A DNA stretch of 48,021 nucleotides from Negativicutes bacterium (GTDB lineage Bacteria; Bacillota_C; Negativicutes; Sporomusales_B; JARLHX01), in the NCBI GenBank assembly GCA_031292015.1, contig JARLHY010000122.1:1-48021 (forward strand), in the 5' to 3' direction. This document shows, one piece after another, positions 4,377 to 45,538 of this stretch. The translations under genes and the position numbers were made by a program. The notes beneath the pieces were generated by a model, which was not told the DNA's origin, did no database searches, and was given only the letters and a program-made list of their open reading frames with translations. Every line of letters begins with the position of its first letter. The stretch's first letter is position 1.

Positions 4377-4458
4377 AAATATAATTTAATAAATTAAATA
4401 TGATTGCTCGATATTTGTTGTTTTGTGGGAAATTACGGATGGTGAGGAGAATGAATTC

Positions 4459-5820
4459 GTGGCTGATTTGGTGGCAGAGAAAGACCGCCGGATAGATTCT
4501 GTTGAAGATTTAAAGAAACAATACCCTTTGCTGGACAAGATCATAGCAACAAATGAGGTTTTTTGGGTCAATCCGAAGTATTCGCCGGACATCGATGGCA
4601 GGAGTGGTTCCATCCTTGGCAAAACGGATATCGACGAAGCGGAAAACAGGCTGATAAGGTTTGCTCCCTACATTGCCGAAGCTTTTCCTGAAACGCGGCA
4701 GGAAAAAGGTGTTATCGAATCGCCGCTGGTCCGCATCCCCGGAATGCAAGCAGAGCTGAAAAAAATGTATGGCCATGAACTGAGCGGATTTTTGTATCTG
4801 AAATGCGACAGCCAGCTTCCCATTTCAGGGTCGATCAAGGCCCGCGGCGGTATATACGAAGTGCTGAAAATCGCAGAAGACATCGCTGTAAGGCGCGGGT
4901 TGCTCTCGGTTACTGATGATTACGCAAAGCTTGATAGCGAATATTTCAGAAGGTTATTCTCGGAGTATTCCATTATCGTTGGCTCGACTGGAAATTTAGG
5001 GCTCAGCATCGGGATCATCGGTGCTAAGCTGGGCTTTAAAGTGGTTGTACATATGTCGTCGGACGCCCAGCAGTGGAAGAAAGACATGCTCAGGTCAAAG
5101 GGCGTAAAGGTGGTCGAGCATAGCTCGGACTATACCCGGGCGGTGGAAGCAGGTCGGAGTGAAGCGCTGCAAGATGCCAACAGCCATTTTGTTGATGATG
5201 AAAATTCTCGCAATCTATTCCTGGGTTATGCCGTTGCCGCCCGTAGATTAAAAAAACAGTTGGATGCTTTGAATGTCCCTGTGGACAAAGATCACCCATT
5301 ATTCGTATATCTGCCCTGCGGAGTTGGCGGTGGGCCCGGCGGAGTTACTTTCGGCCTGAAAAGTGTATTCAGGGAGAATGTTCACTGCTTTTTTGCCGAG
5401 CCGACTCATTCGCCGGCTATGCTGGTAGGCCTTTTAACCGGCCTTCATGACCAGATATCGGTTCAGCAGCTGGGAATTGATAATATCACCGATGCCGACG
5501 GGCTGGCTGTTGGCAGACCGTCCGGCTTCGTCGGGAAACTGCTGGAAAGAGACATAAGCGGTGTTTATACTGTTCAGGATGAAGAACTGTATTCGCTTTT
5601 GCGGGCGCTTGCTGACAGCGAGAAAATCTATCTGGAGCCTTCAGCTTTAGCGGGCTTTATGGGGCCGGTAAAATTGTTCGCAGAATCCTCAGGCCTGCGA
5701 TACCTAAAAACCAATCAATTGATAAATAAGGTGGTGAATACCTCCCATATTGTATGGGCTACTGGTGGCAGTATGGTTCCCGTTGAGATTATGAAAGGGT
5801 TTTACAACAGGGGAAAGTGA
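4459..5820 (+). CDS. dsdA: D-serine ammonia-lyase (D-serine dehydratase)
   Basis: PLP enzyme converting D-serine to pyruvate and ammonia in the cytoplasm. The PLP-lysine motif [14 protein letters not shown] and the glycine-rich phosphate loop [11 protein letters not shown] are typical of DsdA rather than of the D-threonine aldolase-like D-serine lyases. About 453 residues, close to family length. The start is set at GTG 4459, 9 bases after GGTGAGGAG (4441-4449); an upstream in-frame TTG at 4423 has no site. The coding sequence is more AT-rich than genes on either side. It is the first gene of a three-gene run with an acylase and an MFS carrier, consistent with growth on D-amino-acid derivatives. 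Confidence 0.93.
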
Positions 5821-5852
5821 CGGCAATGCAAGCAGGGAAAGGGGAGATACAG

Positions 5853-7451: not shown

Positions 7452-7468
7452 GCGAAAGGAGTGTAATC

Positions 7469-8725
7469 ATGAACTGGAAAACAAGGTACAATGTGTTGAC
7501 TATTATTTTCATTGCTTATCTGGTTTGCTATATGGACCGGATGGTTATGGCCACCGCCATTCCCTTCATAGCCAAAGACTTTTCCCTTTCGCCCCTGGAG
7601 ATGGGGGCTGTTTTGAGCGCCTTCTTCTTCAGTTATGCGCTGTCCCAAATTCCCGGCGGACTGCTGGCAGATAAATTTGGCGCCAGAGCTGTTGTGACCG
7701 GGGGGCTTATCTGGTGGAGCATTTTTACCGCTGTCACCGGACTTGCCAATTCCTTAAAGTCCATGATTGTATACCGGGTTTTGTTTGGCATCGGCGAAGG
7801 TATATTTCCGCCAGGGGCTTTCAAGACGGTTGCCTCCTGGTTTCCAAACCGTGAAGTGGGCCGGGCCAATGCAATCATGCTGACAACCAACTGTCTGGGT
7901 CCGGCGCTTGCCCCTATTTTCGTGGCCTATTTCATTGTTGCCTGGGGCTGGCGGATGGTTTTCTTCAGTCTGCTGATACCGGGCATTATTATAGCCGCTT
8001 TGGTGTGGCGGTACTGTAAGCACCCGCGGGCGAGCCTGCATCTGTCTGCAGCGGAATTGGCGGAGATTGAAGGCGATGTTAAGGAACCCACTTGTGCACC
8101 TCAGAAAAAGATCGGATTTGGGCAGCTCGTCCGGATTCCTATCCTCTGGAAGTGCTTTTTCACTTTGTTCTTTTTTAATATCGCTCTTTGGGGTTTGATG
8201 TCCTGGTTGCCCACTTACCTGTTGCAGGTCAGAGGCCTTTCCATCATGAATATGGGTATTGCGGCCTCGCTGCCATTCCTGTCAGGAACGGTAGGGATCT
8301 TGCTGAGCGGGTATTTATCTGATCGTTGGTTCAAGAATCACCGGCACCTGCTGGTTGTCTTCGGAGCAAGTATCGGAGCGGTATTTATCTATCTGAATGC
8401 TATGGCGGTTTCCGCCGAGGCCGCCGTCAGCTATCAGATTATCGGCTTTTTCTTTCTGTGGATTGCCATGGCATCTATATTTACAATTCCCATCGCGACC
8501 CTGCCTGCTGCGGTAGCGGGATCAGCCATGGGGCTTGTAAACACGGCAGGACAGGCCGCCGGTTTCTTATCACCGCTTCTTGTGGGCTACATCCTCACGA
8601 TAACGAAAAATGATTACTACTATGCGTTTATGATGTTTGTCATTTGCTTGCTGATTTCATCGCTGGCGGCATTAACCATCGGTTCGACAAAGACAATACC
8701 TGTGTCGCAAAACATTGATATGTAA
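7469..8725 (+). CDS. MFS transporter, probable uptake of the D-amino-acid derivative
   Basis: Major facilitator with 12 predicted membrane segments and 418 residues. The loop 2-3 motif reads GGLLADKFGARAV and the first segment contains CYMDRMVMATA, as in the anion:cation symporter group of MFS carriers. It follows the deacylase by 17 bases with AAAGGAG upstream, so it belongs to the same operon and probably imports its substrate (an N-acyl-D-amino acid or similar organic anion). The specificity is not readable from sequence. Confidence 0.85.
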   Translation: MNWKTRYNVLTIIFIAYLVCYMDRMVMATAIPFIAKDFSLSPLEMGAVLSAFFFSYALSQIPGGLLADKFGARAVVTGGLIWWSIFTAVTGLANSLKSMIVYRVLFGIGEGIFPPGAFKTVASWFPNREVGRANAIMLTTNCLGPALAPIFVAYFIVAWGWRMVFFSLLIPGIIIAALVWRYCKHPRASLHLSAAELAEIEGDVKEPTCAPQKKIGFGQLVRIPILWKCFFTLFFFNIALWGLMSWLPTYLLQVRGLSIMNMGIAASLPFLSGTVGILLSGYLSDRWFKNHRHLLVVFGASIGAVFIYLNAMAVSAEAAVSYQIIGFFFLWIAMASIFTIPIATLPAAVAGSAMGLVNTAGQAAGFLSPLLVGYILTITKNDYYYAFMMFVICLLISSLAALTIGSTKTIPVSQNIDM

Positions 8726-9545: not shown

Positions 9546-10775
9546 TCACAGATTGGCGTGGGCCGGCGGCTTGGTGGCAAAGGCGATGATCAGCGCCGCG
9601 AACAGCAGCGTGGCGGAAACAACGTAAGCCAAAAAGTAGCTGCCGGTCGCGTCCACCGCCCAACCGGCCAAGAGGGGCCCCAGGAAGCCGGCGCAGCCCC
9701 AGGCGGAGAGCATCAGGCCGTAGTTGACTCCCAGGTTTTTCAGCCCGTAAAAATCAGAGGTAATCAGCGGGAATATGGTAAAACAGGCGCCATAGCAAAG
9801 GCCGGTGACCATCGTGCCAACCGCCAGCAAGGACGGTGTAAGATAACTGAAAAACAGCAATAGGTTCAGCGCCTGTAGAAAAAAGGCTATTTTCAAGGTG
9901 AATATGGGACCGAACCTGTCGGAGCAGATACCGCTGGCAATTCGGCCGATAGTGTTAAACAGGGCCAGCAGGCTGACAAGGTAAAATCCGTATTCCCAGT
10001 TTGCCTGGGTCTTGGCGATGGTGGCAAGATGGCCGAAAATCATGAGCCCGCCCGAGGCCGCGAAGAAAAAAGACAGCCACAGCTTATAGAAGGTGGGGGT
10101 TTTAAGCATCTGTCGCCATTCATAATCAGGCTTCAGTCGGGCCGGCGCCGTTACCCCGCCGGCCTGGGCAAAGGTAGATCCCGCCTCATAGCCGGGCGGC
10201 GGGTTGCTTAAAAACCGGGCGGCGATGCTGCTGACCACCACAATTCCAATACCAAGCAGCAAAAAGGTGTTCGCAATGCCGTGGCTGGCGATTGACCAGT
10301 TGGCTATCGGTGACATATAGACCGCGGCCATTCCGGTGGCACCGACGACAATTCCCGCGATCCGCCCCCGTTTTTCCGGCGGAAACCATTTGAGGCTTGT
10401 CGGGACCGCAGTGGCGTAGCACATGGAAAAGCCGACACTGGCAATGGCCCCGTAGCTGATGGTCAGCGCCAGCGGGGTGCTGGAATAGATACAGGCAATC
10501 ATGCCGAGGCCAAGAACCAGGGAGCCTGCCCCGGCGACCCGCCGCGGCCCGAATTTATCCTGGGCTCTTCCGGCGAAGATCGTCGAAAAGGCGTAGATTG
10601 CCGTGTAAAAGGTATAAGGGAGGGACGCTTCCACATTGGTCCAGTGCCAGTCGGTCACCAGGGACTTTTTTATCACGCTCCAGGAATAATTGATCCCCAT
10701 CGTCAGATTGATCGCGGTGGCCGCAGCCAGCGAGGACCAGGCCCGGTATTTCAGCGGTCTGTCATTTTTCAGCAT
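9546..10775 (-). CDS. MFS transporter, OFA (oxalate/formate antiporter-like) family
   Basis: 409-residue, 12-segment carrier. The N-terminus (LTMGINYSWSVIKKSL), the loop 2-3 motif GRAQDKFGPRRVAG, and the internal ICSDRFGP at the corresponding place of the second half fit the OFA group, which moves small carboxylates and also includes pyruvate-inducible YhjX. A GAAGGGA site precedes the start. It is a lone minus-strand gene; its own substrate is not indicated by neighbours. The 245 bases upstream (10776-11020) hold no recognisable gene or clear structure. Confidence 0.85.
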   Translation of the reverse strand: MLKNDRPLKYRAWSSLAAATAINLTMGINYSWSVIKKSLVTDWHWTNVEASLPYTFYTAIYAFSTIFAGRAQDKFGPRRVAGAGSLVLGLGMIACIYSSTPLALTISYGAIASVGFSMCYATAVPTSLKWFPPEKRGRIAGIVVGATGMAAVYMSPIANWSIASHGIANTFLLLGIGIVVVSSIAARFLSNPPPGYEAGSTFAQAGGVTAPARLKPDYEWRQMLKTPTFYKLWLSFFFAASGGLMIFGHLATIAKTQANWEYGFYLVSLLALFNTIGRIASGICSDRFGPIFTLKIAFFLQALNLLLFFSYLTPSLLAVGTMVTGLCYGACFTIFPLITSDFYGLKNLGVNYGLMLSAWGCAGFLGPLLAGWAVDATGSYFLAYVVSATLLFAALIIAFATKPPAHANL

Positions 10776-14242: not shown

Positions 14243-14310
14243 ATTTGAAAAATAGTCTCGCATCCGGGAAACCGATCGCGGCAGAAAAAACGGGGAGGGT
14301 GACTCTGGTT

Positions 14311-15774
14311 ATGAGTAGCTCTTTTGAAGACTGGGGCCGAAAATATGGACTGGTTCTGGCGCTGGTCGTGGGTCTGGCTATTTGGCTGCTGCCGACTCCG
14401 GCAACCATGTCGATCACGCAGCACAAGCTGCTGTCGATCTTCGGCGGAGCGGTGGTCGTCTGGATCACCATCGGCATTAATTTTGCTGTAAGTACTTTTG
14501 CTATTATTTCTCTGCTATATTTTTGGGTAGGCAATGACGCCGGCAAACTGGCCAAAGACGGCTCCCTGGTCCATGACGCCAACTTCGCCGTGAGCGGGTT
14601 CGGCTCGCCGGCCTTATGGCTGCTGGTAACCGGCTTTGTCATCGCTATCGCCATGACCCGGTCCGGCGTGGCCAAACGCCTGGCGCTTTACATGATGCGA
14701 CTGTTCGGCCGGACGCCCCCGGGGGCGATCTTGGCCTCGCTTCTGGCCAATTTCCTTATCGCGCCCCTGACCCCTTCCAACACCGCGCGGACCGCCGCCA
14801 TGCTTCCGATCATCGAAGGCATCGCCGCCGCCTATAAAGCCGAGCCGGGCAAAAGCAACTTTGGCAAGGCGCTGGCCCTGTCCGCGACCTTTGCTTCCAA
14901 CATCACCGGCTCAGCCTTTTTGACCGGCACCATTCCCAACCCTGTTGCCATCGGTATGATCGCCGCTGCCGCGGGGGCTTCGGTTTCCACCACCTGGGGC
15001 TACTGGGCTCTTGCCGCGGTGCCTACCAACGTTGTTATTCTGATCGTCACCGCATGGCTGATGCTCAAGCTGTTTCCGCCGGAAGTCAAGGTTCTGCCCG
15101 GCGGCCTGGATTACATCAACAAGGAACTGGCCGGGATGGGGCCAATGACCCGGCGTGAGAAAAAGGCCATTCTTTATTTTTTCCTGGCGCTGTTGCTTTG
15201 GTCCACTGACATGATCCACAACTTCAACTCAACGATGGTGGCGTTCTTTGTCTCGCTGCTGATTTTTCTTCCTAAAATTGGGGTGCTGGAATGGAAGGAG
15301 ACCGAAAAGTCGCTGCCCTGGGAATTGTTTGTTTATTTTGGCGGGGTGCTGACCCTGGGGGATGCCCTGATGAGGACCAAGGCCTTTGAATGGCTGATCA
15401 AGACCTGCCTTTCTTCCCTGGGACTGGAACATGTGGCGATGATGCCGCTGCTTATACTGCTGATCGGATTCACCATTTTCAGCCATGTCGTCTGGTCCAC
15501 CACCACCGCTATGGCCGGGGTCATGATCCCGATCTACATCGGCCTGGCCCAGGTTATGGGCTTCAACATTGTGAGTTTTGTGCTGCCCTTGGCAATTATG
15601 ATGGCCTACGCCCTGTTTTTGCCCTTTAACACCATGGGGAATATCATCCTGTTCGGAACCGGCTATTATACCGTTACCGAGCAGGTGAAGTCGTCGGTGA
15701 TCCTGGGAATGATCATCTGGGGGCTGTGGATCGTTACAGCGTTCACCTGGTGGCGGGTCATCGGCCTGTTATAG
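14311..15774 (+). CDS. DASS/SLC13-family anion transporter (CitT/dicarboxylate type)
   Basis: 487 residues with about 12 hydrophobic segments. The helix-turn SNT-type signature appears as LTPSNTARTAAMLPI in the first half, and the second-half equivalent lies in FSHVVWSTTTAMAGVMIPI, the pattern of divalent-anion transporters that carry citrate, succinate or tartrate. The start is ATG 14311 after GGGGAGGG; the frame extends to 14245 without a site. The FAD-dependent oxidoreductase follows 31 bases later, so import of a hydroxy-dicarboxylate followed by oxidation is a reasonable but unproven reading. Confidence 0.87.
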   Translation: MSSSFEDWGRKYGLVLALVVGLAIWLLPTPATMSITQHKLLSIFGGAVVVWITIGINFAVSTFAIISLLYFWVGNDAGKLAKDGSLVHDANFAVSGFGSPALWLLVTGFVIAIAMTRSGVAKRLALYMMRLFGRTPPGAILASLLANFLIAPLTPSNTARTAAMLPIIEGIAAAYKAEPGKSNFGKALALSATFASNITGSAFLTGTIPNPVAIGMIAAAAGASVSTTWGYWALAAVPTNVVILIVTAWLMLKLFPPEVKVLPGGLDYINKELAGMGPMTRREKKAILYFFLALLLWSTDMIHNFNSTMVAFFVSLLIFLPKIGVLEWKETEKSLPWELFVYFGGVLTLGDALMRTKAFEWLIKTCLSSLGLEHVAMMPLLILLIGFTIFSHVVWSTTTAMAGVMIPIYIGLAQVMGFNIVSFVLPLAIMMAYALFLPFNTMGNIILFGTGYYTVTEQVKSSVILGMIIWGLWIVTAFTWWRVIGLL

Positions 15775-15805
15775 AAAACAATAAAGAGAACCGGAGGGAG
15801 ATAAT

Positions 15806-16942
15806 TTGGAAAAAATGGATTTTATCGTTGTCGGCGCCGGGGTAGTGGGCCTGGCGGTGGCCGCTGAGCTGACCAGACGGTTTGAAGACCAGTCGGTGGT
15901 TCTGCTGGAAAGGCACTCCAAATTTGGCCAGGATACGTCAAGCCGCAACAGCGAGGTTATCCACGCCGGCATGTATTATCCTACCGGCAGCCTGAAAGCT
16001 CAGCTCTGTGTCGAGGGCAACCCCGCCCTGTACAAGTTCTGTGAGGAGTACCACATTCCCCATCAGCGGATCGGCAAGCTGATCATCGCTCGCAATGACA
16101 GTGAAATCCCCAGCATCGAGGGTATCTTAAAGCAGGGCCGGGCCAACGGAGTGGCGGGTCTGGAACTGATCGACCGCGGTCAGATCGCCAGGATGGAGCC
16201 CAATATTACCGCCGTAGCCGCTGTATATTCGCCTTCCACCGGTATCGTCGACAGCCATAAGCTCATGGCCCAGTTGGAGCGGCAGGCGCAGCAGGGCGGG
16301 GCGATGCTGGCCTACAAACATCAGGTCACTGACGTACATTTTAAGAAAGACGGCTATGAAGTCGTTTTTACCGGACCGGACGGGGCCGGCGATTCCCTGG
16401 AATGCCGCTGGCTGATCAACTGCGCCGGGCTGTACGCCGACCTCATTCCTGCCTGCCTCGGGATCGATACGGCGGCCGCCGGCTACAAGATCTACCCGGT
16501 GAAAGGCGAATATTTCTCTGTCGCCGCAGCCAAGTCGAAACTCATTTCCCACCTGATCTATCCGCCGCCGCTGAAAAGTCTCCACGGCCTGGGCACGCAT
16601 GTCACCAAAAGCCTGGACGGCCGGGCGCGGCTTGGCCCGAATGCCCACTATGTGGATGAGCTTGAGGATTATGACGTCGATATCGCCCATGGCGAAGAAT
16701 TCTATCAGGCGGCAAGAACCTACCTGCCCTTTGTCGAGCGGGAGGATCTGCAGCCGGATATGGCGGGGATGCGGCCCAAGATCCAGGCGCCGGACGCCCC
16801 TGTCGCCGATTTCGTGGTCCGTCATGAAAATGACCGGGGCCTTCCCGGCTTGATCGATCTTGTCGGCATCGAGTCGCCGGGCCTTACCTCCTGCCTCAGC
16901 CTGGCGAAGAAAGTGGCTGGAATGATTGCTGCCGCGACATGA
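15806..16942 (+). CDS. FAD-dependent oxidoreductase, L-2-hydroxyglutarate oxidase-like
   Basis: DAO-fold flavoprotein, 378 residues, similar to LhgO/L2HGDH-type 2-hydroxyacid dehydrogenases. The N-terminal dinucleotide motif is IVVGAGVVGLAVAAEL, followed by the family block RNSEVIHAGMYYP; a substrate-domain stretch HGLGTHVTKSLDGRARLGPNA and the C-terminal IESPGLTSCLSL are typical. Start: TTG 15806, 8 bases after GGAGGG, preferred over ATG 15815, which is too far away. Likely cotranscribed with the DASS transporter. It may oxidise 2-hydroxyglutarate or another 2-hydroxyacid. Confidence 0.85.
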   Translation: MEKMDFIVVGAGVVGLAVAAELTRRFEDQSVVLLERHSKFGQDTSSRNSEVIHAGMYYPTGSLKAQLCVEGNPALYKFCEEYHIPHQRIGKLIIARNDSEIPSIEGILKQGRANGVAGLELIDRGQIARMEPNITAVAAVYSPSTGIVDSHKLMAQLERQAQQGGAMLAYKHQVTDVHFKKDGYEVVFTGPDGAGDSLECRWLINCAGLYADLIPACLGIDTAAAGYKIYPVKGEYFSVAAAKSKLISHLIYPPPLKSLHGLGTHVTKSLDGRARLGPNAHYVDELEDYDVDIAHGEEFYQAARTYLPFVEREDLQPDMAGMRPKIQAPDAPVADFVVRHENDRGLPGLIDLVGIESPGLTSCLSLAKKVAGMIAAAT

Positions 16943-17800: not shown

Positions 17801-19111
17801 ATGTCTACAACAACCTTCGAATTTCCTTACGGCGACGAAGTCGTCAAGCTGGCGCTGCCGACGCGGCAGATACTGAGTGACATCAGGGGATCCAAAGCAG
17901 TAGCGGTAACCGACGTTCCGGCGGCTGTCCGGGAAGCCCTGCGAAATCCGATCGGCTGCGCTCCTTTGGCCCAAACGGTTAAGGCGGGCGACCAGGTGGC
18001 CATCCTGGTCAGCGATATCACCAGAGCGTACGTGAAATTCGACCAGTTTCTGGCGGTGCTGCTGGATGAACTGAATACAGCGGGTGTGCCTGACAGCGAT
18101 ATCTTTATCGTGATTGCCCTGGGCGCCCACCGGATGAATACCGATGCCGAAATCGTGACAATCTGCGGAGCGGATGTCTGCCACCGCATCAAAGTCGTTC
18201 AGCACGACACTCACGACAAAGACAATCTGGTCTATGTCGGAACGACTCCCCGCGGTGTCGAAAGCTATGCCAATAAGCAGGTAATGGCCGCCGATAAGGT
18301 AATCCTGACCGGGGGGATCGTATATCACCTGATGTCCGGGTTTGGCGGCGGGCGCAAAGCAGTCATGCCTGGCATCAGCGGCTATGACAGCATCCAGGCC
18401 AACCACCGGTTTTGCCTGAACGCCGTCGTTGGCCAGGGCCTCAACCCCAACTGCGGTTCCGGGATGGTCCGGGAGAATGAAATGGCTTTGGATATGGCCG
18501 ACATAGCAGCGCTGGTCAACCCGGACTTCCTGCTGAACGCCGTGTTCACTCCGGAGGGGGACTTCGCCAGATTCGTTGCCGGCCACTGGCTGGCGGCCTG
18601 GGAAGAAGGGTGCCGGGAAGTTGAAAGAATCAACGGGATACCTGTCGACGGCCAGGCTGACCTCACCATTGCCTCAGCCGGAGGCTATCCCAAAGACATC
18701 AACTTGTATCAGGCAATCAAACCCATCGACAACGCTTATATGGCGACAAAACCCGGCGGCGTGGCCATTATGTTTATGGAATGCCGTGATATTATGGAGC
18801 CGCCTGAATACAGCGAGTGGCTCAGCATCAAGGATCCGCTGCAGTTCGAACTCGCGCTGCGCAAGCAATTCACCGTTCCGGGTTATTCGGCATTCCGCCT
18901 TACCCACATCGCCAGGCAGATTACCCTCATCGGGGTCAGCAAACCGGAAAACGCCGAGTTCCTCCGCAATGCCGGGATCATTCCTGTTACCGATTATGCC
19001 GCGGCGATGGAGATCGCCAGCCAAAAGCTCGGTCGGGCAAACTACACGATCAACGTTATGACCCAGGCCGCCTCTACCGTGCCGCTGGTTCGACGGGCCG
19101 CAAAAGAATAA
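17801..19111 (+). CDS. LarA-family nickel-pincer racemase/epimerase, copy 1
   Basis: Homologue of lactate racemase LarA, which epimerises 2-hydroxyacids with a nickel-pincer nucleotide bound to a lysine. All key positions are visible: D72 and R75 in VSDITR, H110 in ALGAHR, H176 and K186 in YHLMSGFGGGRKA, H202 in QANH, and Q and K in YQAIK. 436 residues, normal length. A good AAGGAGG site precedes ATG 17801. No LarB, LarC or LarE cofactor genes lie in the window. Its position ahead of an IclR regulator and a dehydratase-like gene suggests a hydroxy acid other than lactate. Confidence 0.88.
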   Translation: MSTTTFEFPYGDEVVKLALPTRQILSDIRGSKAVAVTDVPAAVREALRNPIGCAPLAQTVKAGDQVAILVSDITRAYVKFDQFLAVLLDELNTAGVPDSDIFIVIALGAHRMNTDAEIVTICGADVCHRIKVVQHDTHDKDNLVYVGTTPRGVESYANKQVMAADKVILTGGIVYHLMSGFGGGRKAVMPGISGYDSIQANHRFCLNAVVGQGLNPNCGSGMVRENEMALDMADIAALVNPDFLLNAVFTPEGDFARFVAGHWLAAWEEGCREVERINGIPVDGQADLTIASAGGYPKDINLYQAIKPIDNAYMATKPGGVAIMFMECRDIMEPPEYSEWLSIKDPLQFELALRKQFTVPGYSAFRLTHIARQITLIGVSKPENAEFLRNAGIIPVTDYAAAMEIASQKLGRANYTINVMTQAASTVPLVRRAAKE

Positions 19112-19174
19112 CAGGGCCGTCTGGCGGAAATTTGGCGGTTGACGAATCATAGCCTGAGTGGTATTTTTTAGATA

Positions 19175-19209
19175 GTGCGCGTATGCAAACTCAGTTCGCT
19201 TATGCGAAC
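19175..19209. promoter_or_regulatory. Tandem palindromic operators ahead of the IclR gene
   Basis: GTTCGCTTATGCGAAC (19194-19209) is an inverted repeat broken only at its central TTAT. A second copy, GTGCGCGTATGCAAAC (19175-19190), matches the form GTTCGCATATGCGAAC at 13 of 16 positions, with centres 19 bases apart. The third site follows the gene at 20042. The arrangement points to IclR autoregulation. Confidence 0.7.
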
Positions 19210-19226
19210 CTGCTGGGGGGGTCAGT

Positions 19227-20012
19227 ATTTTAAAAAGCAACAAATCCGCCGCCCGGACGATTGATATCCTGAACCTGCTGGCCCAGAGCCCCAAGCCTTT
19301 GACGCAGCAGGAGATCAGTCAGGCCTTGGACTGGCCCAAAAGCAGCACTTATGAGCTGATCCATACCTTGCTGGGAAAGGAGATCCTCGAATTTGACAAT
19401 GAGGATCTGAAAACCTTCCGGCTGGGGATCAAGGTGTTTGAAATCGGGATGTCGGTTCTGGAGAAGACCGATCTGCCCAAAATTGCCCGGCCTTATCTGG
19501 AAGACCTGAGCGCCGATACCGACGAAACGGTCTTTCTTGCGGTGGAAAATAGCGGCGACATAGTGTATTTGGACAGGGTCGAAGAAAACAGCTCCATCAC
19601 CACTTCCGCCGGTCTGGGAATGCGCCGCCCGATGTACTGCACCGGACTGGGCAAAGCGTTGCTGGCCACATATCCGCCGTCCAAGGTCGAAGAGATATGG
19701 GGCAAGGGAGATCATCCCGTTTTTACCAGAAATACCATCCGTCGCTACGACGAGCTGGTTCAGGCCCTTGACCAGACTCGCCAGCAAGGTTACGCCATCG
19801 ACAATCGGGAAATGGAAGATGAAATTTTTTGTGTGGCCGCTCCGGTCTACGGCCGCTCGGATAAAGCCGTTGGGGCCATCAGCATCGCCGGGATTTATCT
19901 GAAAATGCATCCGAAAAAAACCGAATTGTTCGGCAAAAAGATCGTGGACACGGCGCTGGCGATATCCAAACGGCTTGGCTACCGCCGCGACCGGCTGTAC
20001 CCTGGTATATAG
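19227..20012 (+). CDS. IclR-family transcriptional regulator, probable ATT start
   Basis: Full-length IclR protein, about 261 residues: an N-terminal winged helix (KSAARTIDILNLLAQ, LTQQEISQALDWPKSSTYELI) and a C-terminal effector domain (GDIVYLDRVEENS, MYCTGLGKALLA). The frame has no ATG, GTG or TTG between the upstream stop at 19173 and the TTG at 19299, which would delete the first helix. The only position giving the normal N-terminus is the ATT at 19227, just after a G-rich stretch; ATT starts are rare but known (infC). A start at 19299 or a sequencing error are alternatives. It lies between LarA and UxaA copy 2, with palindromes on both sides. Confidence 0.82.
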   Translation: MLKSNKSAARTIDILNLLAQSPKPLTQQEISQALDWPKSSTYELIHTLLGKEILEFDNEDLKTFRLGIKVFEIGMSVLEKTDLPKIARPYLEDLSADTDETVFLAVENSGDIVYLDRVEENSSITTSAGLGMRRPMYCTGLGKALLATYPPSKVEEIWGKGDHPVFTRNTIRRYDELVQALDQTRQQGYAIDNREMEDEIFCVAAPVYGRSDKAVGAISIAGIYLKMHPKKTELFGKKIVDTALAISKRLGYRRDRLYPGI

Positions 20013-20041
20013 CTGTTCTTATGTCTGATATACCGAACTAA

Positions 20042-20057
20042 GTTCGCATATGCGAAT
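20042..20057. promoter_or_regulatory. Perfect palindromic operator ahead of UxaA copy 2
   Basis: TTCGCATATGCGAA (20043-20056) is a perfect 14-base palindrome and nearly identical to the sites at 19175-19209. It sits 140 bases before the UxaA start in a 185-base gap, so the IclR protein probably controls the downstream catabolic genes. Confidence 0.75.
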
Positions 20058-20197
20058 GAATGTGACGGCATATTGACTCCGGCTGTCGACCGATAAGGTT
20101 TTTTGCCGGAGCGTGCCCTGGCACAATCAGGATCTTTGAGCCAAAGACTGCAACAACATTCTGAGCTGCAACCGGAACAACAAAAGAGGTGTGGAAA

Positions 20198-21361
20198 ATG
20201 ACGTTTATGGGATATCGCCGGGCTGACGGAACGGCGGGGACACGAAATCATATTTTGATTCTGCCGACCGTCGCCTGTGCCAATCAAGTGACCCGCTCCA
20301 TCGCCAGACAGGTACAGGGCACGGTGTGGGTGGAGCATCAGCACGGCTGCTCTCAGCTGGCGCCTGACGCCGCTCAGACTGCCCGGGTTTTCGTGGGGCA
20401 TGGTATTCATCCCAATGTGTTCGGTATCGTGGTCGTCGGTCTCGGCTGCGAAGGGGTAAGAGCCCAGGATGTGGCCGCCGAGATCAGGCGCCGTTGTCCT
20501 TATAAGCCGGTGCATTGCGTGATCATCCAGGACGCCGGCGGGTCGCTTTCCGCCATCGCCGCCGGCGCCAGGGCGGCCGAGCAGATAGTGAAGGAGGCGT
20601 CACGTTGCGTCAGGGAGCCGATCCCGGTCGCCGAGCTTATTCTGGGAACGGCGTGTGGCGGCTCGGACGCTTCTTCCGGACTGTCGGCCAACCCGGCGCT
20701 GGGTGAGGCCAGCGATTTGCTGGTGGATGCCGGCGGAACCGCCGTGCTGTCGGAAACGCCGGAGCTGATCGGCGCGGAGCACTTGGTGGCGGCCAGAGCC
20801 GTAAACAAGGAAGTGGCCGAAAGATGTTACGAACTTGTCCGGCGGTGCGAGGAAGGGGCAAAGGCTCTGGGGGTTGACATGCGCGGCAGCAATCCCAGCC
20901 CCGGCAATATTGAGGGCGGGCTGACCACCATCGAGGAAAAATCGCTGGGCTGTATCTATAAAGGCGGAACAAGGCCGCTGGTAAGCGTATTTGAGTACGC
21001 CGAGCAGATCGATGTCAAAGGTCTTGTTTACATGGACACCCCCGGCAACGACGTGGAACAGCTTACCGGGATGGTCGCAGGCGGCTGCAATGTTATTGTT
21101 TTTACCACCGGCCGGGGGACGCCGACCGGGTCGCCTATTGTGCCGACCGTCAAGGTTGCGGCAAATTCCGAGCTTTTCCGTAAAATGGCCGATAACATGG
21201 ACCTGAACGCCGGCACTGTTGTCACCGGTGAGGAAACGGTCAAACAGGTCGGCCAGCGAATCTTCGCCGAGATGATTGAGGTGGCGTCAGGACGGCTGAC
21301 AAAAGCGGAGATCATGGGCCAGAATGATTTCGGCATCAACCGGATCGGACCGTCGATGTAG
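20198..21361 (+). CDS. UxaA-family dehydratase/hydrolase large subunit, copy 2
   Basis: 387 residues from ATG 20198, the same length as copy 1 at 1653 and closely similar throughout. It carries the same blocks: EHQHGCSQL, GHGIHPNVFG, VVGLGCE, ACGGSDASSGLSANPALG, NPSPGNIEGGL, IEEKSLGCI and TTGRGTPTGSPIVPT. It lacks a SAF domain. ATG 20198 was chosen over GTG 20189 because AAGAGGTG (20184-20191) is placed for it and the length then equals copy 1. It heads a run of ferredoxin, AOR, MoaD-like, DapA-family and MFS genes under the IclR palindrome, implying sugar-acid or hydroxy-acid dehydration. Confidence 0.87.
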   Translation: MTFMGYRRADGTAGTRNHILILPTVACANQVTRSIARQVQGTVWVEHQHGCSQLAPDAAQTARVFVGHGIHPNVFGIVVVGLGCEGVRAQDVAAEIRRRCPYKPVHCVIIQDAGGSLSAIAAGARAAEQIVKEASRCVREPIPVAELILGTACGGSDASSGLSANPALGEASDLLVDAGGTAVLSETPELIGAEHLVAARAVNKEVAERCYELVRRCEEGAKALGVDMRGSNPSPGNIEGGLTTIEEKSLGCIYKGGTRPLVSVFEYAEQIDVKGLVYMDTPGNDVEQLTGMVAGGCNVIVFTTGRGTPTGSPIVPTVKVAANSELFRKMADNMDLNAGTVVTGEETVKQVGQRIFAEMIEVASGRLTKAEIMGQNDFGINRIGPSM

Positions 21362-21447
21362 CTCCGGGGGACGGTCGACCTTTACTGGAGAATCTGATCC
21401 GCACGGCTGCGGTGGCTGGCCGACTTTGTAGTAAGAGGTGTTGTCAG

Positions 21448-21846
21448 GTGGGGAGAATTGTTGTCCGCAGTGATCAGTGCAGCGGGTGCCGGAGCTGTCA
21501 GGTTATCTGCTCCATGCATCATGAAAAACATGTGGCGCCGAGTGAGGCTCGAATCAAGGTGCGAAGTGAATATCCCTGGCGCGAGGAACCGGTGGTCTGC
21601 CGGCAGTGCGCCGATCCGGCCTGCCGGAAGGCGTGTCCGGCCGGCGCGATAACGGCAGGCGGAACGGTCCCGGTCATTGATCAGGAAAAATGCGTTCAGT
21701 GCTGGCAGTGCGTCAAGGCTTGTTCCTTTGGCGCTATCTGGGAAAATGGCGCGAAAGGGCCGCTGGTATGCGACACGTGTTCGGGACAGTATCTTTGCGT
21801 GCGCTGGTGTCAGCCCAAAGCCCTTACGCTGGGGGAGGAGAATTGA
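21448..21846 (+). CDS. 4Fe-4S ferredoxin-type electron carrier, AOR partner
   Basis: About 132 residues with at least three Cys clusters of the HycB/DmsB kind: CSGCRSCQVIC, CRQCADPACRKACP, CVQCWQCVKAC and a final CDTC with CVRWC. It would bind three to four [4Fe-4S] clusters and move electrons to or from the AOR encoded directly after it. Start: GTG 21448 with AGAGGTG 7-8 bases upstream; an in-frame ATG-less extension to 21412 has no site. The gap to AOR is 2 bases, implying tight coupling. Confidence 0.88.
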   Translation: MGRIVVRSDQCSGCRSCQVICSMHHEKHVAPSEARIKVRSEYPWREEPVVCRQCADPACRKACPAGAITAGGTVPVIDQEKCVQCWQCVKACSFGAIWENGAKGPLVCDTCSGQYLCVRWCQPKALTLGEEN

Positions 21847-21848
21847 CC

Positions 21849-23669
21849 ATGTCGGGTGGGTATACAGGAAAGCTGCTGCGGATTGATCTTGGGCGACGCA
21901 AGCATTCGGTGGAGAACATCCCGGTCGATGTCGCCAGAAAATATCTTGGGGGAAAAGGAATATCGGCTTATCTTTTGTATAGCGAATTGCCTGCCAAATG
22001 CGATCCCCTTGGGCCGGAAAATATGTTGGTGTTCGCCAACGGACCGTTGACTGGAACGCTGGTTCCGGCTTCTTCCCGCGTCACGGTCAGCACCAAAAGC
22101 CCGCTCACCGGAGGTTGGCTGGACAGTAATTGCGGCGGCTTCTGGGGGCCTGAACTGAAATACGCCGGGTATGACGTGCTGGTCGTCAGCGGCTGCGCCG
22201 ACGAACCCACCGTTCTGGTGATCGAGGATGATGCTGTCCGGTTTGAACCGGCCGCTGCTGTTGCCGGCTATGATTGTCCCGGGACTGAAAGAGCTCTGAA
22301 AGAAAAATACGGCGCTGATCATCGGGTAGCCTGCATCGGGCCGGCGGGAGAAAATAGACTGCCGCTGGCGTCGATCATCGCCGAAGGGCGGGCTTTCGGC
22401 CGGGGCGGTCCGGGCGCGGTGATGGGCAGCAAAAATCTCAAGGCCATCGTGGTTCGTGGCCGGGGCAGCATCGGGATTGCCAGCTACGAGGCGTTTCTCA
22501 CCGCCAACAACGAGGCGCTGAATGAATTGACCATAAGCCCTGATACCGGCGGTTCCAGGCCCAAGTACGGCACCAACAGCATCCTCAGTGCCATGGACGT
22601 GCTCGGTATTCATCCGGTGCAGAACTTTCAGGGAATGCCTTGGACCGGCGCCGACAAACTCAACGAAGAAGTGCTGGCAGATCAATATTACAAGAAGAAC
22701 AAAGCTTGTTTCGCCTGCCCGATCCGTTGCAGCAAGGTGTCGCGGGTAGACGGCGGAAAATACAAAGGTAGTGTTGTCGAGGGGCCCGAGTACGAAAATG
22801 CCTGGAGCTTCGGCGCCCAGTGCGGTAATGCCGATCCCGGGGCGGTTATCGAGGCCGAGCGGCTCTGCGACTTTTACGGAATGGATTCGGTGTCGGTGGG
22901 CAATGCCATCGGGTTCGCCATGGAATGCTTCCAGCGGGGACTGATTACCGAGCGGCAGGTGGGTTTTCCGCTGGAGTTCGGTGACGACGACGCCATGATT
23001 CGGCTGGTGCACCTGATCGGTAAAGGCGAAGGCTTCGGACAGGTGATCGGTCAGGGCGTCAAGCGGGCCGCGGCAGTCATCGGCGGCAATTCCAACGACT
23101 TCGCTATGCATGTCAAAGGGATGGAACTTCCTGCATACGATCCCCGGGCCGTCTTTGGCATGGGTCTGGCTTATGCCACCAGCGACCGCGGCGGGTGCCA
23201 TCTCCGGGCCTGGCCGGTGGGGGCGGAAGTGCTGCAGACCAAGGGCCGGATGGATCCCTATAGCACCGAGTATAAGGCCGATCTGGTGAAAAGCCAGCAA
23301 GAATGGTTTGCTGTTGTTGATTCCATCGGCCTGTGCCTGTTTGCCACCTATGCCTTGACGCCGCGCCAGGTGACCCTCCTTCTGACCGGGTTGACCGGAA
23401 TCGAAGAATTTGCCAGTGCCGATTACCTGATGATAACCGGTGAGCGGATTTATAACCTGACCCGCCTGTTCAACCAGCGGGAGGGTTTTGGCAAAAAAGA
23501 CGACACCTTGCCGAGCCGCCTGCTGAATGAACCGATGCCCAGCGGCCCGGCCAAAGGCCTCACCGTGGATTTTGCGCCGATGTTGAAGGAATATTACTTT
23601 ATTCGCGGCTGGGATGAGGACGGCGTACCCAAAAAAGAGACGCTGGACGCCCTGGGACTCAAAGCATGA
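21849..23669 (+). CDS. aor: Tungsten-dependent aldehyde:ferredoxin oxidoreductase
   Basis: About 606 residues, the usual AOR length. Oxidises aldehydes to carboxylates (or the reverse) with ferredoxin, using a bis-pterin tungsten centre. Seen: the N-terminal GYTGKLLRIDL and YLGGKGISAYLL, the block SRVTVSTKSPLTGGW, the pterin-region GPAGENRLPLASI, and CFACPIRCS giving three of the cluster ligands, with a later Cys in GLCLFATY as the fourth candidate. The ATG at 21849 follows GGAGGAG. It overlaps the MoaD-like gene by four bases. The likely role is oxidation of an aldehyde made by the aldolase-type enzyme downstream. Confidence 0.92.
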   Translation: MSGGYTGKLLRIDLGRRKHSVENIPVDVARKYLGGKGISAYLLYSELPAKCDPLGPENMLVFANGPLTGTLVPASSRVTVSTKSPLTGGWLDSNCGGFWGPELKYAGYDVLVVSGCADEPTVLVIEDDAVRFEPAAAVAGYDCPGTERALKEKYGADHRVACIGPAGENRLPLASIIAEGRAFGRGGPGAVMGSKNLKAIVVRGRGSIGIASYEAFLTANNEALNELTISPDTGGSRPKYGTNSILSAMDVLGIHPVQNFQGMPWTGADKLNEEVLADQYYKKNKACFACPIRCSKVSRVDGGKYKGSVVEGPEYENAWSFGAQCGNADPGAVIEAERLCDFYGMDSVSVGNAIGFAMECFQRGLITERQVGFPLEFGDDDAMIRLVHLIGKGEGFGQVIGQGVKRAAAVIGGNSNDFAMHVKGMELPAYDPRAVFGMGLAYATSDRGGCHLRAWPVGAEVLQTKGRMDPYSTEYKADLVKSQQEWFAVVDSIGLCLFATYALTPRQVTLLLTGLTGIEEFASADYLMITGERIYNLTRLFNQREGFGKKDDTLPSRLLNEPMPSGPAKGLTVDFAPMLKEYYFIRGWDEDGVPKKETLDALGLKA

Positions 23670-23935
23670 GCCTGAAAGTCAAAGTAAAGGTGCAATTTCT
23701 CGGACCTTTAAGCGAAGCTGCAGGGAAACGGCAGGTTGTCCTGGAAGTGGAGCCTGATGTCAGGGCAGCGATCGCGGACATCGAGGGGATTTTCCGGCTG
23801 AAGTCGCCGGACGGTCAGCTTGCACCCGGTGGCGTTTTCGTCAATGGCCGCCATGTATCATTGTTGCCAAAAGAAAAAATGTTGCTCAAGGACAATGACA
23901 TCATCACATTTATGCATTGTGTCAGCGGCGGTTGA
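23666..23935 (+). CDS. MoaD/ThiS-family sulfur carrier
   Basis: 89 residues of ubiquitin-like fold ending in CVSGG, the C-terminal di-glycine that becomes a thiocarboxylate for sulfur transfer in pterin-cofactor synthesis. The position, overlapping the AOR stop by ATGA, indicates supply of the tungsten pterin for that enzyme. No other cofactor-biosynthesis gene (MoaA, MoaE, MoeA) lies in the window. Confidence 0.85.
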   Translation: MSLKVKVKVQFLGPLSEAAGKRQVVLEVEPDVRAAIADIEGIFRLKSPDGQLAPGGVFVNGRHVSLLPKEKMLLKDNDIITFMHCVSGG

Positions 23936-23957
23936 GTAGCGGATAGGAGACGAAATC

Positions 23958-24893
23958 ATGTTTAAACCTTATGGAGTTTACGCGGCGATGCTGACTCCTT
24001 TCAGAGCCGATGGTGAAGTTAACGAGGAAGTGCTGCGGCGCCTGGTGGATTTTCTTATTGCCAAGGGCCTGCACGGACTGTTTCCGGTCAGTTCGGTCGG
24101 CGAATTCGCTCACATGACCCTGGAGCAGTGCGTCCAAACGATGGAGATTGTGTTCGACCAGGCCAAAGGTCGGGCGGCGGTGACCCCCGGCGTGAGTTCC
24201 ACCTGCGCCGAGCACTCGATAAAACTGGCCCGCAAGGCCCAGGAACTGGGCTGCCAGGGGGTGGTTATCTGTCCACCCTATTATTACTCCATCAGCCAGG
24301 AAAATATGGAGAAACATTTCGAGCTTGTGGCCGATTCGGTGGAGATTCCCGTTATTTTATACAATATCCCCCTGTTTGCCACCCCTATTTCCAACGATGT
24401 GGTCAAACGCCTGAGCCGCCGGAAAAATGTGGTGGGGATGAAAGATTCCAGTGGCAACATGGTTGAACTTATGCACTATATGGATAAGGCCCGCCTGGCC
24501 GGGTCGGACATGAATTTCATGACAGGGCGGGAGGAGATCCTGGCTCCGGCTCTCTTTGCCGGTGCCAGCGGCTGTATGACCGGCTGCGCCGGCATCATTC
24601 CCGAAATCATGGTGGGAATATGGGATGCCTTCCACGCCGGCGACTATGCCAAGGCCAACCGGATCCAAGTCGCCATGCTCGCCCTGGTGCGGGCGATGTT
24701 TGCCGCGCCTTTCCCGGTGGGCTTCAAGGCCGCTCTGGAAATGCGGGGCTTTGAAATGGGACCGCCGAAACAGCCGCTGGCGGCATCAGAGGAATTTAAC
24801 GTCAGCGGCATCAAGGCCCGGACGAAAAGCATCCTCCAGAGCTTATTGGAGTTTATCGACAAAGAAGGGCTGGACAAAGAAGGCAAAGCCTAA
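23958..24893 (+). CDS. DapA-family lyase/aldolase (class I, Schiff-base)
   Basis: TIM-barrel enzyme of the dihydrodipicolinate synthase/N-acetylneuraminate lyase superfamily, 311 residues. The Schiff-base lysine is in VGMKDSSG, the conserved tyrosine in ILYNIPLF, and the binding loop reads SSVGE in place of GTTGE, a hint at a substrate other than aspartate semialdehyde. In sugar-acid pathways members cleave 2-keto-3-deoxy acids to pyruvate plus an aldehyde or dehydrate and decarboxylate ketodeoxyglucarate. Placed between AOR and the transporter, an aldolase or decarboxylating dehydratase role fits better than lysine biosynthesis. Confidence 0.85.
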   Translation: MFKPYGVYAAMLTPFRADGEVNEEVLRRLVDFLIAKGLHGLFPVSSVGEFAHMTLEQCVQTMEIVFDQAKGRAAVTPGVSSTCAEHSIKLARKAQELGCQGVVICPPYYYSISQENMEKHFELVADSVEIPVILYNIPLFATPISNDVVKRLSRRKNVVGMKDSSGNMVELMHYMDKARLAGSDMNFMTGREEILAPALFAGASGCMTGCAGIIPEIMVGIWDAFHAGDYAKANRIQVAMLALVRAMFAAPFPVGFKAALEMRGFEMGPPKQPLAASEEFNVSGIKARTKSILQSLLEFIDKEGLDKEGKA

Positions 24894-24899
24894 AATCTT

Positions 24900-24942
24900 C
24901 CCCTGGCGAAACCGGCTCTGTGCCGGGAGTTTCTGACAGGGG
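24900..24942 (+). other. Intercistronic hairpin
   Basis: CCCCTG (24900) pairs with CAGGGG (24937), enclosing GAAAC with GTTTC and CGGC with GCCG. There is no T-run. It may protect or process the operon transcript or reduce readthrough into the MFS gene. Confidence 0.4.
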
Positions 24943-25034
24943 CATGATAATGCGGCTAGGCGCCGCAACCGGAAAGGAGAGGAGATTGAAAAGTCTTTCG
25001 TCAGGCAAATAAGATCAAGGAGAGTGATTGAAAC

Positions 25035-26369
25035 ATGGCAGCTTTTACCAGAACAGAACTTGCCGACCGGGCGATGGATAAAGCCCAAAGAAAGATTGTG
25101 CCCTTTATCTTGCTTATGTACGTCCTGGCTTTTCTCGACAGGGCCAACATCGGTTTTGCCAAACAGGCCTACCAGGTCAGCACCGGTGTCAGCGACGCGG
25201 CCTTTGCCCTCGGTGCCGGCATATTCTTCATCGGATACGCAGTTTTTGAAGTGCCCAGCAACATCGCCATGCATCATGTCGGCGCAAGGATTTGGCTGGC
25301 CCGGATCATGATCACCTGGGGTTTGGTGGCCGCGGCTTTCGCCTGGGCGACTACCGAAACCTCCTTTCTGGTTTTGCGCGTACTGCTCGGCATCGCCGAA
25401 GCAGGCTTTTTTCCTGGCATAATCTACTTCTTTACCTTCTGGTTTAGCGCCCGTCGCCGCAGCAGCATGATGGGGCTATTCTATTTCGGCGCTCCCTTGT
25501 CGTTCATTTTCGGTTCGCCGCTGTCCGGCATGCTGCTGGATATCGACGGGTTCCTCGGTGTTGCCGGTTGGCAGTGGATGTTTGTGGTGGAAGGCGTGCT
25601 GGCGTCCATCGTCGGCGTCTGGGCCCTGTGGTACCTTACCGACCGGCCGCAAAAGGCCAACTGGATTCCTGATGAAGAAAAACAGGCTCTTATCGACGAA
25701 CTGGAGGAAGAAAACGCCAACAAGCCCAAGGAAGCCCATGTCGGACCGCTGGTTGTTCTGGCGAATCCGAAGGTGTGGTATGCTGCCGCGATCTATTTCA
25801 TGATTCAGATCAGCGTTTACGGCGTTATCTTCTACCTGCCGACCCAGGTCGCCGGACTGTTGGGGAAAAAAGTCGGGACGCTGGTCGGTTTCGTCAGCGC
25901 CATTCCGTGGATTTGCGCCCTCGCCGCCAACGCGACCATTCCCCGCTATTCCGACCGGTCCGGCAACCGGGGCAACCTGGCCACGCTGCTTATGTTCTTG
26001 GCCGGTGTCGGTGTTATCGCCTCAGCCACCGGTAATCCGCTGGTCGGCATTATTGCCTTGTGCGTTGCTTCGGCCGGATATTTCTGCGTGCAGCCGATAT
26101 TCTGGACCATGCCTACCCAGTTTCTGAGCGGCGTAGCGGCGGCCAGCGCCATCGCTCTCATCAACTCGGTCGGCAATCTCGGTGGGTTCATCGCTCCCAA
26201 TCTGCGGGTATGGGCCGAGCAGACTTTTCACAATCCGGCTGCCGGTCTTTATGCTCTCGGCGCGGCAGCTTTTGCCGGCGCGCTGCTTTTTGCAATATCG
26301 ATTCCTCTGGGCATGGGCAAAAACACACCTCGCCTTGATGCACCGCCTTCTTCTTCTTCGAAGGCTTAA
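25035..26369 (+). CDS. MFS transporter, anion:cation symporter (ACS) family
   Basis: 444 residues, 12 predicted segments. The segment 1 block LAFLDRANIGFA and the loop GYAVFEVPSN with IWLARIM are classic for the ACS group that imports tartrate, galactonate, glucarate and similar sugar acids. The central cytoplasmic loop is charged (DELEEENANKPKE). The start is ATG 25035 after AAGGAGAG. It is the last gene of the IclR-linked block and probably imports the acid that the UxaA-type protein acts on. Confidence 0.88.
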   Translation: MAAFTRTELADRAMDKAQRKIVPFILLMYVLAFLDRANIGFAKQAYQVSTGVSDAAFALGAGIFFIGYAVFEVPSNIAMHHVGARIWLARIMITWGLVAAAFAWATTETSFLVLRVLLGIAEAGFFPGIIYFFTFWFSARRRSSMMGLFYFGAPLSFIFGSPLSGMLLDIDGFLGVAGWQWMFVVEGVLASIVGVWALWYLTDRPQKANWIPDEEKQALIDELEEENANKPKEAHVGPLVVLANPKVWYAAAIYFMIQISVYGVIFYLPTQVAGLLGKKVGTLVGFVSAIPWICALAANATIPRYSDRSGNRGNLATLLMFLAGVGVIASATGNPLVGIIALCVASAGYFCVQPIFWTMPTQFLSGVAAASAIALINSVGNLGGFIAPNLRVWAEQTFHNPAAGLYALGAAAFAGALLFAISIPLGMGKNTPRLDAPPSSSSKA

Positions 26370-45450: not shown

Positions 45451-45538
45451 TTTTCCCGGTCGCCTGACCACCGCAGCAGGAGTTTGCTGCGGCGCGCTGA
45501 ATGATTTGTTATGAATATTATTGCAAGGGGCTGATGCG

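Follow-up and report, generated by a model that had tools for sequence, protein, structure and literature searches.

An aldehyde:ferredoxin oxidoreductase linked to a DapA-family aldolase in a putative operon for anaerobic sugar-acid breakdown

Non-phosphorylative sugar-acid pathways with DapA-type aldolases are already known, as are the tungsten-containing aldehyde:ferredoxin oxidoreductases (AORs); the linkage of the two described here appears to be new, and represents a variation on the former. It concerns a gene cluster in a 48,021-nucleotide stretch of DNA (the window; contig JARLHY010000122.1 of assembly GCA_031292015.1) from a Negativicutes bacterium, an anaerobe related to Sporomusa, whose proteins most resemble those of Sporomusa and other Negativicutes (among the best 120 matches listed). 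Of the closest described systems, the rhm locus of E. coli (yfaX-rhmD-yfaV-yfaU) encodes a non-phosphorylative L-rhamnonate route to pyruvate and L-lactaldehyde and, like the window cluster, comprises an IclR-type regulator, a dehydratase, a YfaV-type carrier and a keto-deoxy-acid aldolase. Its dehydratase is an MR_MLE protein, unlike the UxaA of the window, its aldolase is of the HpcH/HpaI rather than the DapA family, and an AOR is absent among the annotated genes there. The E. coli D-xylonate loci (yagEFG/xynR and yjhGHI, Dahms-type) likewise combine an IclR-type regulator, an IlvD-like dehydratase, a DapA-family aldolase and a carrier; they contain no AOR, and YagE and YjhH fall outside the DapA group of the window. 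In the rhm route lactaldehyde is passed to AldA with NAD (PMC3870299), unlike the AOR step proposed here.

The oxidoreductase has precedents of its own. The Class II tungsten oxidoreductases (WorLS; PfASOR and CbGOR) resemble the window enzyme in consisting of a large subunit (WorL) and a small subunit (WorS) with four 4Fe-4S sites, with a WorX-like gene nearby, whereas the substrates of their two characterised members are aliphatic sulfonates or glyceraldehyde 3-phosphate (PMC13328260), and these differ from the aldehyde proposed here. The Pyrococcus furiosus AOR (494.8 bits) has catalytic residues equal to those of the window AOR; unlike the latter it is a Class I enzyme without WorS, and its presumed role is the removal of aldehydes derived from amino acids (PMC13328260). 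The abstract of this 2026 survey states that only 5 of 92 tungsten-oxidoreductase clades hold a member with a defined physiological role, and the words "aldolase" and "dihydrodipicolinate" are absent from its main text. No description of an AOR–aldolase linkage was found in the open-licence literature (titles and abstract openings, among the matches listed).

We propose, with a probability of about three in four, that the window carries an IclR-controlled operon for anaerobic sugar-acid breakdown via UxaA, a DapA-family aldolase and WorS-AOR. The MFS carrier would import the sugar acid, UxaA would dehydrate it to a 2-keto-3-deoxy acid, and the aldolase would cleave this to pyruvate and a 2-hydroxy-aldehyde, which WorS-AOR, as a two-subunit tungsten enzyme, would oxidise to a 2-hydroxy acid with formation of reduced ferredoxin; WorX would assist in building the cofactor. 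L-Lactaldehyde, derived from a 6-deoxyhexonate such as L-rhamnonate, is the likeliest aldehyde, and LarA may racemise the 2-hydroxy-acid product (lactate). The comparison behind this proposal covers gene content, AOR–DapA linkage, alternative aldehyde oxidisers beside some of the DapAs and shared operator-like sites. The features of the cluster are as follows.

17801..19111, + strand: LarA-family nickel-pincer racemase, LarAH10 (NF052525, 624.8 bits, cut-off 540)
19195..19208, no strand: putative IclR operator TTCGCTTATGCGAA upstream of IclR (near-copy at S. carbonis L091:11094)
19227..20012, + strand: IclR-family regulator, start approximate (72% identical to the L094 IclR, 71% to that of S. 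carbonis)
20043..20056, no strand: putative IclR operator TTCGCATATGCGAA, a perfect palindrome, upstream of UxaA (near-copy at L094:7939, between IclR and IlvD)
20189..21361, + strand: large subunit of a UxaA-family sugar-acid dehydratase, lacking a SAF domain (PF04295 and PF20629)
21448..21846, + strand: WorS-type polyferredoxin subunit with four 4Fe-4S sites, start approximate (16 Cys)
21849..23669, + strand: AOR (WorL), aldehyde:ferredoxin oxidoreductase of the DapA-linked clade (domains, profile, tree, residues)
23666..23935, + strand: ThiS/MoaD-like WorX, probably serving cofactor assembly (PF02597; GG at the C-terminus)
23958..24893, + strand: DapA-family class I aldolase, proposed 2-keto-3-deoxy-sugar-acid aldolase (K162, Y135, F140)
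25035..26369, + strand: MFS carrier of the ACS family, resembling YfaV of the rhm locus (52% identical to the E. coli protein)

All eight genes named in the preliminary description were recovered at their positions on the forward strand, and the families obtained with Pfam (run on all genes except the MFS carrier) and NCBIfam agree with those assigned there. The five genes from UxaA to DapA are separated by 86, 2, -4 and 22 bp, which suggests that they form one operon; the carrier follows DapA after 141 bp, and the gaps at the upstream LarA and IclR genes are about 115 and 176 bp. We considered the eight genes as a fixed pathway unit and rejected this, since LarA and UxaA are sporadic across related loci. 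The conserved core, as judged by comparison, is worS–AOR–(worX)–DapA.

The AOR–DapA linkage was assessed in both directions. A profile built from 22 DapA relatives served to find loci of the DapA subfamily; at least 80 loci came from the contig search, so that the DapA set is incomplete, and neighbouring genes were called by tblastn, in which only families of the query sets are recognisable. In seven whole-genome scans, centred on genomes taken from the contig profile search, few genomes matched at E 1e-90 or better (3/113, 6/380, 3/23, 3/6, 1/195, 1/46 and 4/192), and the subfamily is therefore rare and scattered. In the DapA clade (among the matches listed), 18 of the 32 loci have an AOR as the immediate upstream neighbour of DapA, in the same orientation, and so do six of seven further loci found through the AOR. 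The linked loci include Desulforamulus putei, Desulfofalx alkaliphila (name inferred), Syntrophobacterales, Desulfobacterales, several Clostridia and a Thorarchaeota chromosome (L006), and a worS-like gene (28-46% identity) precedes the AOR wherever the contig extends far enough. AOR genes are numerous (16 of 17 genomes searched have a match, with up to 29 matches); we estimate that a random gene would stand beside one in well under 1 in 100 cases.

In a tree of 62 AORs, all 18 DapA-linked enzymes form one clade (SH-aLRT 100), outside which fall 40 AORs from 13 of the same genomes and four located near DapA-like genes (L042, L052, L074 and L075); the 40 were hand-picked, mostly as high-scoring full-length sequences, and the tree was a quick one without bootstrap. 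For the reverse search, a profile of 14 linked AORs, blind to DapA, was run on 398 genomes from a single phylum and 257 from a single class. Members of the clade scored 755 bits (a fragment) or at least 999 bits (full-length), the next best match 733, and it is on this score gap, not on a tree, that their membership rests. Five of the 12 high scorers were already known via DapA; among the seven new ones DapA adjoins the AOR in six, and the seventh ends 240 bp from the contig end. No DapA was found beside any of the 26 lower-scoring AORs examined (of 63), with about 1.5 kb inspected on each side as a rule and less than 0.7 kb of downstream DNA in at least two of them (L178 and L190). A clade-like AOR was also absent from ten genomes, some of them drafts, whose DapA has no adjacent AOR (best score 637.5 bits, versus 1095.7 in G511); S. 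carbonis has another AOR (595.2 bits) 70 kb from its DapA. The preliminary description had proposed that the aldehyde from aldol cleavage is oxidised by AOR, and this central suggestion thus gains strong comparative support from the association of the two families across phyla. Two of the four characterised Class I tungsten oxidoreductases are assigned to aldehyde detoxification (PMC13328260, Table 2), and the window AOR might likewise be a general detoxification enzyme with a DapA neighbour of unrelated function; since a single AOR clade accompanies a single DapA subfamily in 24 loci of several phyla, we regard this as very unlikely.

Two side observations concern Archaea and Chloroflexi. The worS-AOR-DapA module of the Thorarchaeota locus L006 (AOR 54% and DapA 57% identical to those of the window) probably reflects inter-domain transfer. 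In L052 (Bathyarchaeota) and L042 (Chloroflexi), AORs from outside the clade have longer DapA-family genes adjacent or close by, in the opposite orientation.

Further evidence comes from what stands in place of the AOR. In L016 an AldA-type gene, 64% identical to E. coli AldA, directly follows DapA. In L002, whose DapA belongs to the window's own six-row DapA subclade, an AldA-type gene (61%) is the divergent neighbour of IclR-DapA-LarA; E. coli AldA is named lactaldehyde dehydrogenase in PDB entries. Two loci just outside the DapA clade, L094 and L095 (DapA 45% and 42%, carrier 69% and 66% identical to those of the window), encode PduL, a CoA-acylating PduP-type aldehyde dehydrogenase, an acetate/propionate kinase and shell proteins of bacterial microcompartments (BMCs). 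No homologue of AldA or PduP was seen in the AOR loci among the 50 sequences scanned. The aldehyde-oxidation step of the preliminary description is thereby reinforced by four AOR-less loci: three unrelated aldehyde-oxidising solutions beside related aldolases provide the strongest argument that DapA releases an aldehyde.

The BMC loci themselves (L094:6971-19501 and L095:79-11142) possibly represent an undescribed BMC type. All small open reading frames tested there (four of four in L094, two of two in L095) encode BMC-domain proteins, and both loci also hold a DapA-family aldolase, an RnfC-like protein, an FAH-family protein and a YfaV-type carrier, with IlvD as the dehydratase in L094 and an L-rhamnonate dehydratase in L095. 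Like them, the fucose/rhamnose microcompartments (PVM, GRM5) combine an aldolase, an aldehyde dehydrogenase and shell genes for lactaldehyde; these use a class II sugar-phosphate aldolase (PMC8217296), whereas the aldolase of L094 and L095 is of the DapA family. The words "dihydrodipicolinate" and "dehydratase" are absent from the main text of the 2021 BMC catalogue. No shell gene was detected by Pfam and NCBIfam among the window genes scanned.

The DapA-family protein has the residues of a class I pyruvate aldolase: K162 and Y135, which we take to be the Schiff-base lysine and catalytic tyrosine of the dihydrodipicolinate synthase (DHDPS) superfamily, are invariant in all 22 aligned DapA relatives, and the SSVGE loop occupies residues 45-49. 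A function as true DHDPS was rejected, as the protein scores below the cut-off (TIGR00674, 190.0 bits versus 206.15) and contains Phe140, again invariant in the 22 rows, where E. coli DapA has an Arg, presumably Arg138 in its own numbering. In a 99-row tree (a quick method without bootstrap, with long branches meeting), in which the DapA clade comprises 32 rows, the window protein does not group with the 2-keto-3-deoxy-pentonate aldolases YagE and YjhH. A fold search of the predicted model (pLDDT 93.4) against the PDB ranks N-acetylneuraminate lyase, YagE and DHDPS alike among the best matches and is therefore not discriminating, nor are PDB sequence searches, which return mostly DHDPS. As a side observation, L008 (6568-7470) and L096 (6134-7051) carry, just upstream of worS-AOR-DapA, a second DapA-family gene that does group with YagE/YjhH, and their loci also hold a TRAP carrier, a PfkB kinase and a KDPG aldolase.

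Members of the same superfamily can also act in a Weimberg-type route, in which DapA would serve as a dehydratase/decarboxylase yielding 2-oxoglutarate semialdehyde and the AOR would oxidise this to 2-oxoglutarate. We consider it unlikely for the window. To our knowledge L-rhamnonate cannot yield this semialdehyde, and the AldA, or PduP with PduL and kinase, of the relatives would better suit a short aldehyde. Such dehydratases do exist in the DHDPS superfamily (PMC13398020), and two 5-dehydro-4-deoxyglucarate dehydratase models match the window DapA at 101-116 bits, below their cut-offs of 278 and 373.95.

On the proposed aldolase reading, the aldehyde would pass to an AOR with the characteristics of a Class II enzyme. 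The large subunit consists of AFOR_N and AFOR_C domains and contains T242, E316, Y430 and H451, equivalents of which are conserved in most aldehyde oxidisers (PMC13328260), together with the cluster cysteines C287, C290, C294 and C496; all eight residues are invariant in 14 clade members. The small subunit WorS has 16 Cys, counted from 21448 on, and ends 2 bp upstream of the AOR. The metal is probably tungsten, as judged from the family, ferredoxin is the predicted electron acceptor, and WorX would serve cofactor assembly, a role predicted for such proteins in PMC13328260.

The window UxaA comprises the second and C-terminal domains of the UxaA/GarD family (GD_AH_second and GD_AH_C; PF04295 and PF20629) and is 37-39% identical to E. 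coli UxaA and GarD; Pfam confirms that the SAF domain is missing, as had been noticed earlier. It does not reach the galactarate dehydratase cut-off (TIGR03248, 274.8 bits versus 730.85). A sulfolactate sulfo-lyase (SuyB) was also considered, and no SuyA-like SAF gene was seen beside UxaA. A dehydratase family was recognised in the DNA of 13 of the 39 loci examined: UxaA in the window, L005, L091, L092, L093, L111 and L208 (in five cases together with IlvD/Edd), IlvD/Edd in L001 and L014, and MR_MLE in L009, L209, L211 and L214. In L111, from another phylum, UxaA-worS-AOR-DapA are contiguous in the window order (55, 41, 55 and 61% identity), so that the neighbourhood is conserved elsewhere, a test that the preliminary description had set; in L208 UxaA follows worS-AOR-DapA. 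UxaA is one of three alternative dehydratase families. Among the best 120 matches listed, UxaA and AOR relatives occur on contigs of equal size (129680, 47169, 24762 and 7210 bases), in two of these four records with a DapA relative as well, which is only a hint that the contigs are the same. A second UxaA-family large subunit, 66% identical to that of the cluster, is found at 1653-2816 of the window. Downstream of it, at 4423-8725, are genes for a D-serine ammonia-lyase, an amidohydrolase and another ACS-type carrier.

Regulation can be considered from the operator-like sites. The listed TTG start of IclR (19299) is probably too late, since from 19227 the protein aligns over 258 residues with the IclR of L094 (72%). 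In a scan of the window, a 14-bp palindrome-like site, TTCGCWTATGCGAA, chosen after inspection of the sequence, was located twice, at 19195 before IclR and at 20043 before UxaA; LarA has no copy in front of it. Sites with at most one mismatch from TTCGCATATGCGAA number two in the window, one in S. carbonis (upstream of IclR) and one in L094 (between IclR and IlvD); none occurred in 11 other loci scanned, nor in 20 mononucleotide shuffles of each of three sequences. This distribution suggests, and no more, that IclR governs the unit from UxaA to the MFS carrier and that LarA is a separate unit.

The window LarA belongs to the LarAH10 family and contains His110, His176 and Lys186, which we take to be functional residues of LarA. 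It is 54% identical to the LarA next to DapA in L002, and a LarA of this type stands beside DapA in only these two of the 41 sequences scanned. The preliminary description had treated LarA as a fixed part of the pathway; this was not supported, as the enzyme is rarely present and an operator-like site separates it from IclR and UxaA. LarAH10-type enzymes act on hydrophobic 2-hydroxy acids, that of M. elsdenii working best on D-mannonate and epimerising D-gluconate/D-mannonate, and LarAH66 of S. termitida, from the same hydrophobic-acid group, takes lactate and 2-hydroxybutyrate (PMC11770544). This range would fit LarA to either end of the pathway. A place upstream, as C2 epimerase of the sugar acid rather than an enzyme of the product, is therefore conceivable, and the company of group-22 LarA relatives with UxaA, HpcH and IlvD in the S. 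carbonis, S. termitida and L093 loci points the same way. The window LarA is a LarAH10 and not of group 22, the S. termitida enzyme takes lactate, and LarA is not preceded by an operator-like site; we hold the upstream role to be the less probable one. The group-22 relatives (NF052515), which stand beside UxaA, an HpcH aldolase and IlvD in Sporomusa-type genomes (L091, L092, L093 and, by tblastn, L116), are possible sugar-acid epimerases in their own right.

Other genes of the window may be mentioned here. A second LarA (45521-46804) passes the cut-off for nickel-dependent lactate racemase (513.2 versus 460), and an MFS carrier on the reverse strand (9546-10775) that for the NCBIfam L-lactate transporter (382.3 versus 320). 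Within 14245-16942, a DASS anion symporter is followed by an FAD oxidoreductase nearest to L-2-hydroxyglutarate oxidase, under its cut-off (280.2 versus 299).

A clue to the substrate is the carrier, which is 52% identical to E. coli YfaV, versus at most 25% to DgoT, ExuT, GarP and GudP, with no match to YagG at 1e-5. In the annotated E. coli record the yfaV gene lies between rhmD (L-rhamnonate dehydratase) and yfaU (2-keto-3-deoxy-L-rhamnonate aldolase). Two further loci, L024 and L025, combine a DapA (42%) with an L-rhamnonate dehydratase and a YfaV-type carrier; the L024 dehydratase is 92% identical to E. coli RhmD, that of L025 96% identical to the L024 enzyme, and that of L095 84% to RhmD. 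No MR_MLE protein occurs in the window cluster, whose dehydratase is of the UxaA family. Taken together, the YfaV-type carrier and the L-rhamnonate dehydratases of related clusters favour a 6-deoxyhexonate, with L-lactaldehyde, known from the non-phosphorylated L-rhamnose route (PMC3870299), as the likeliest aldehyde. The common theme would be the conversion of a 2-hydroxy-aldehyde to a 2-hydroxy acid, which would account for the 2-hydroxy-acid enzymes found near DapA: LarA (window and L002), a GlcD-like protein (L211; 563.0, just under the cut-off of 567.9), dehydrogenases (L008 and L096) and Ldh_2 (L018).

Several observations weigh against the proposed pathway or parts of it. Of the 32 rows of the DapA clade, 14 have no AOR next to DapA; in 12 of these, S. 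carbonis and S. termitida among them, AldA and PduP were not seen either. A dehydratase was not seen in 26 of the 39 loci, some of them on short contigs and with only the query-set families recognisable. A SAF gene stands just upstream of UxaA in S. carbonis, S. termitida and L111, unlike the window, where a motif scan found none at all; it may be encoded outside the window. If the operator search tolerates two mismatches, at least as many matches as observed turn up in 4 of 100 dinucleotide-shuffled versions of the window, and no such site was found in the S. termitida locus. The least secure part is LarA, whose membership in the operon is doubtful. Identity to the window DapA is only 42-45% for the DapAs that accompany L-rhamnonate dehydratase (L024, L025 and L095) or belong to the BMC loci; because these lie outside the 32-row clade, L-lactaldehyde is an extrapolation. 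Finally, the dehydratase of L214 passes the galactonate dehydratase cut-off (316.2 versus 311), and L209 and L211 hold other or unclassified MR_MLE types, that of L211 being arabinonate/galactonate-like and below all cut-offs; the AOR-DapA module therefore probably serves several sugar acids.

These last loci, with the GlcD-like gene of L211, also bear on a version of the pathway with another acid, either a pentonate (glycolaldehyde oxidised to glycolate) or a hexonate (glyceraldehyde to glycerate). AldA also accepts glycolaldehyde, and the best substrate of the M. elsdenii LarAH10 is D-mannonate (PMC11770544). The affinity of the carrier to YfaV rather than to DgoT, ExuT, GarP or GudP, and the L-rhamnonate dehydratase that accompanies a 66% identical carrier in L095, argue for the deoxy acid, leaving the other acids a possible but lesser choice. 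Returning to L-lactaldehyde, we tentatively suggest, at somewhat less than even odds, that the enzymes of the AOR clade are specialised in oxidising 2-hydroxy-aldehydes, mainly L-lactaldehyde, with ferredoxin as acceptor, and are paired with a DapA subfamily of their own; together they would form a ferredoxin-linked, non-phosphorylative deoxy-sugar-acid route, present in bacteria and in one or more Thorarchaeota genomes, in which AldA or an undescribed BMC version can take the place of the AOR.

The finding assigns to one group of tungsten oxidoreductases a specific, testable partner and a substrate class, and marks an aldolase subfamily and a microcompartment locus as worth assaying. If the proposal is true, fermenting bacteria and sulfate reducers would gain reduced ferredoxin from the cleavage of sugar acids.

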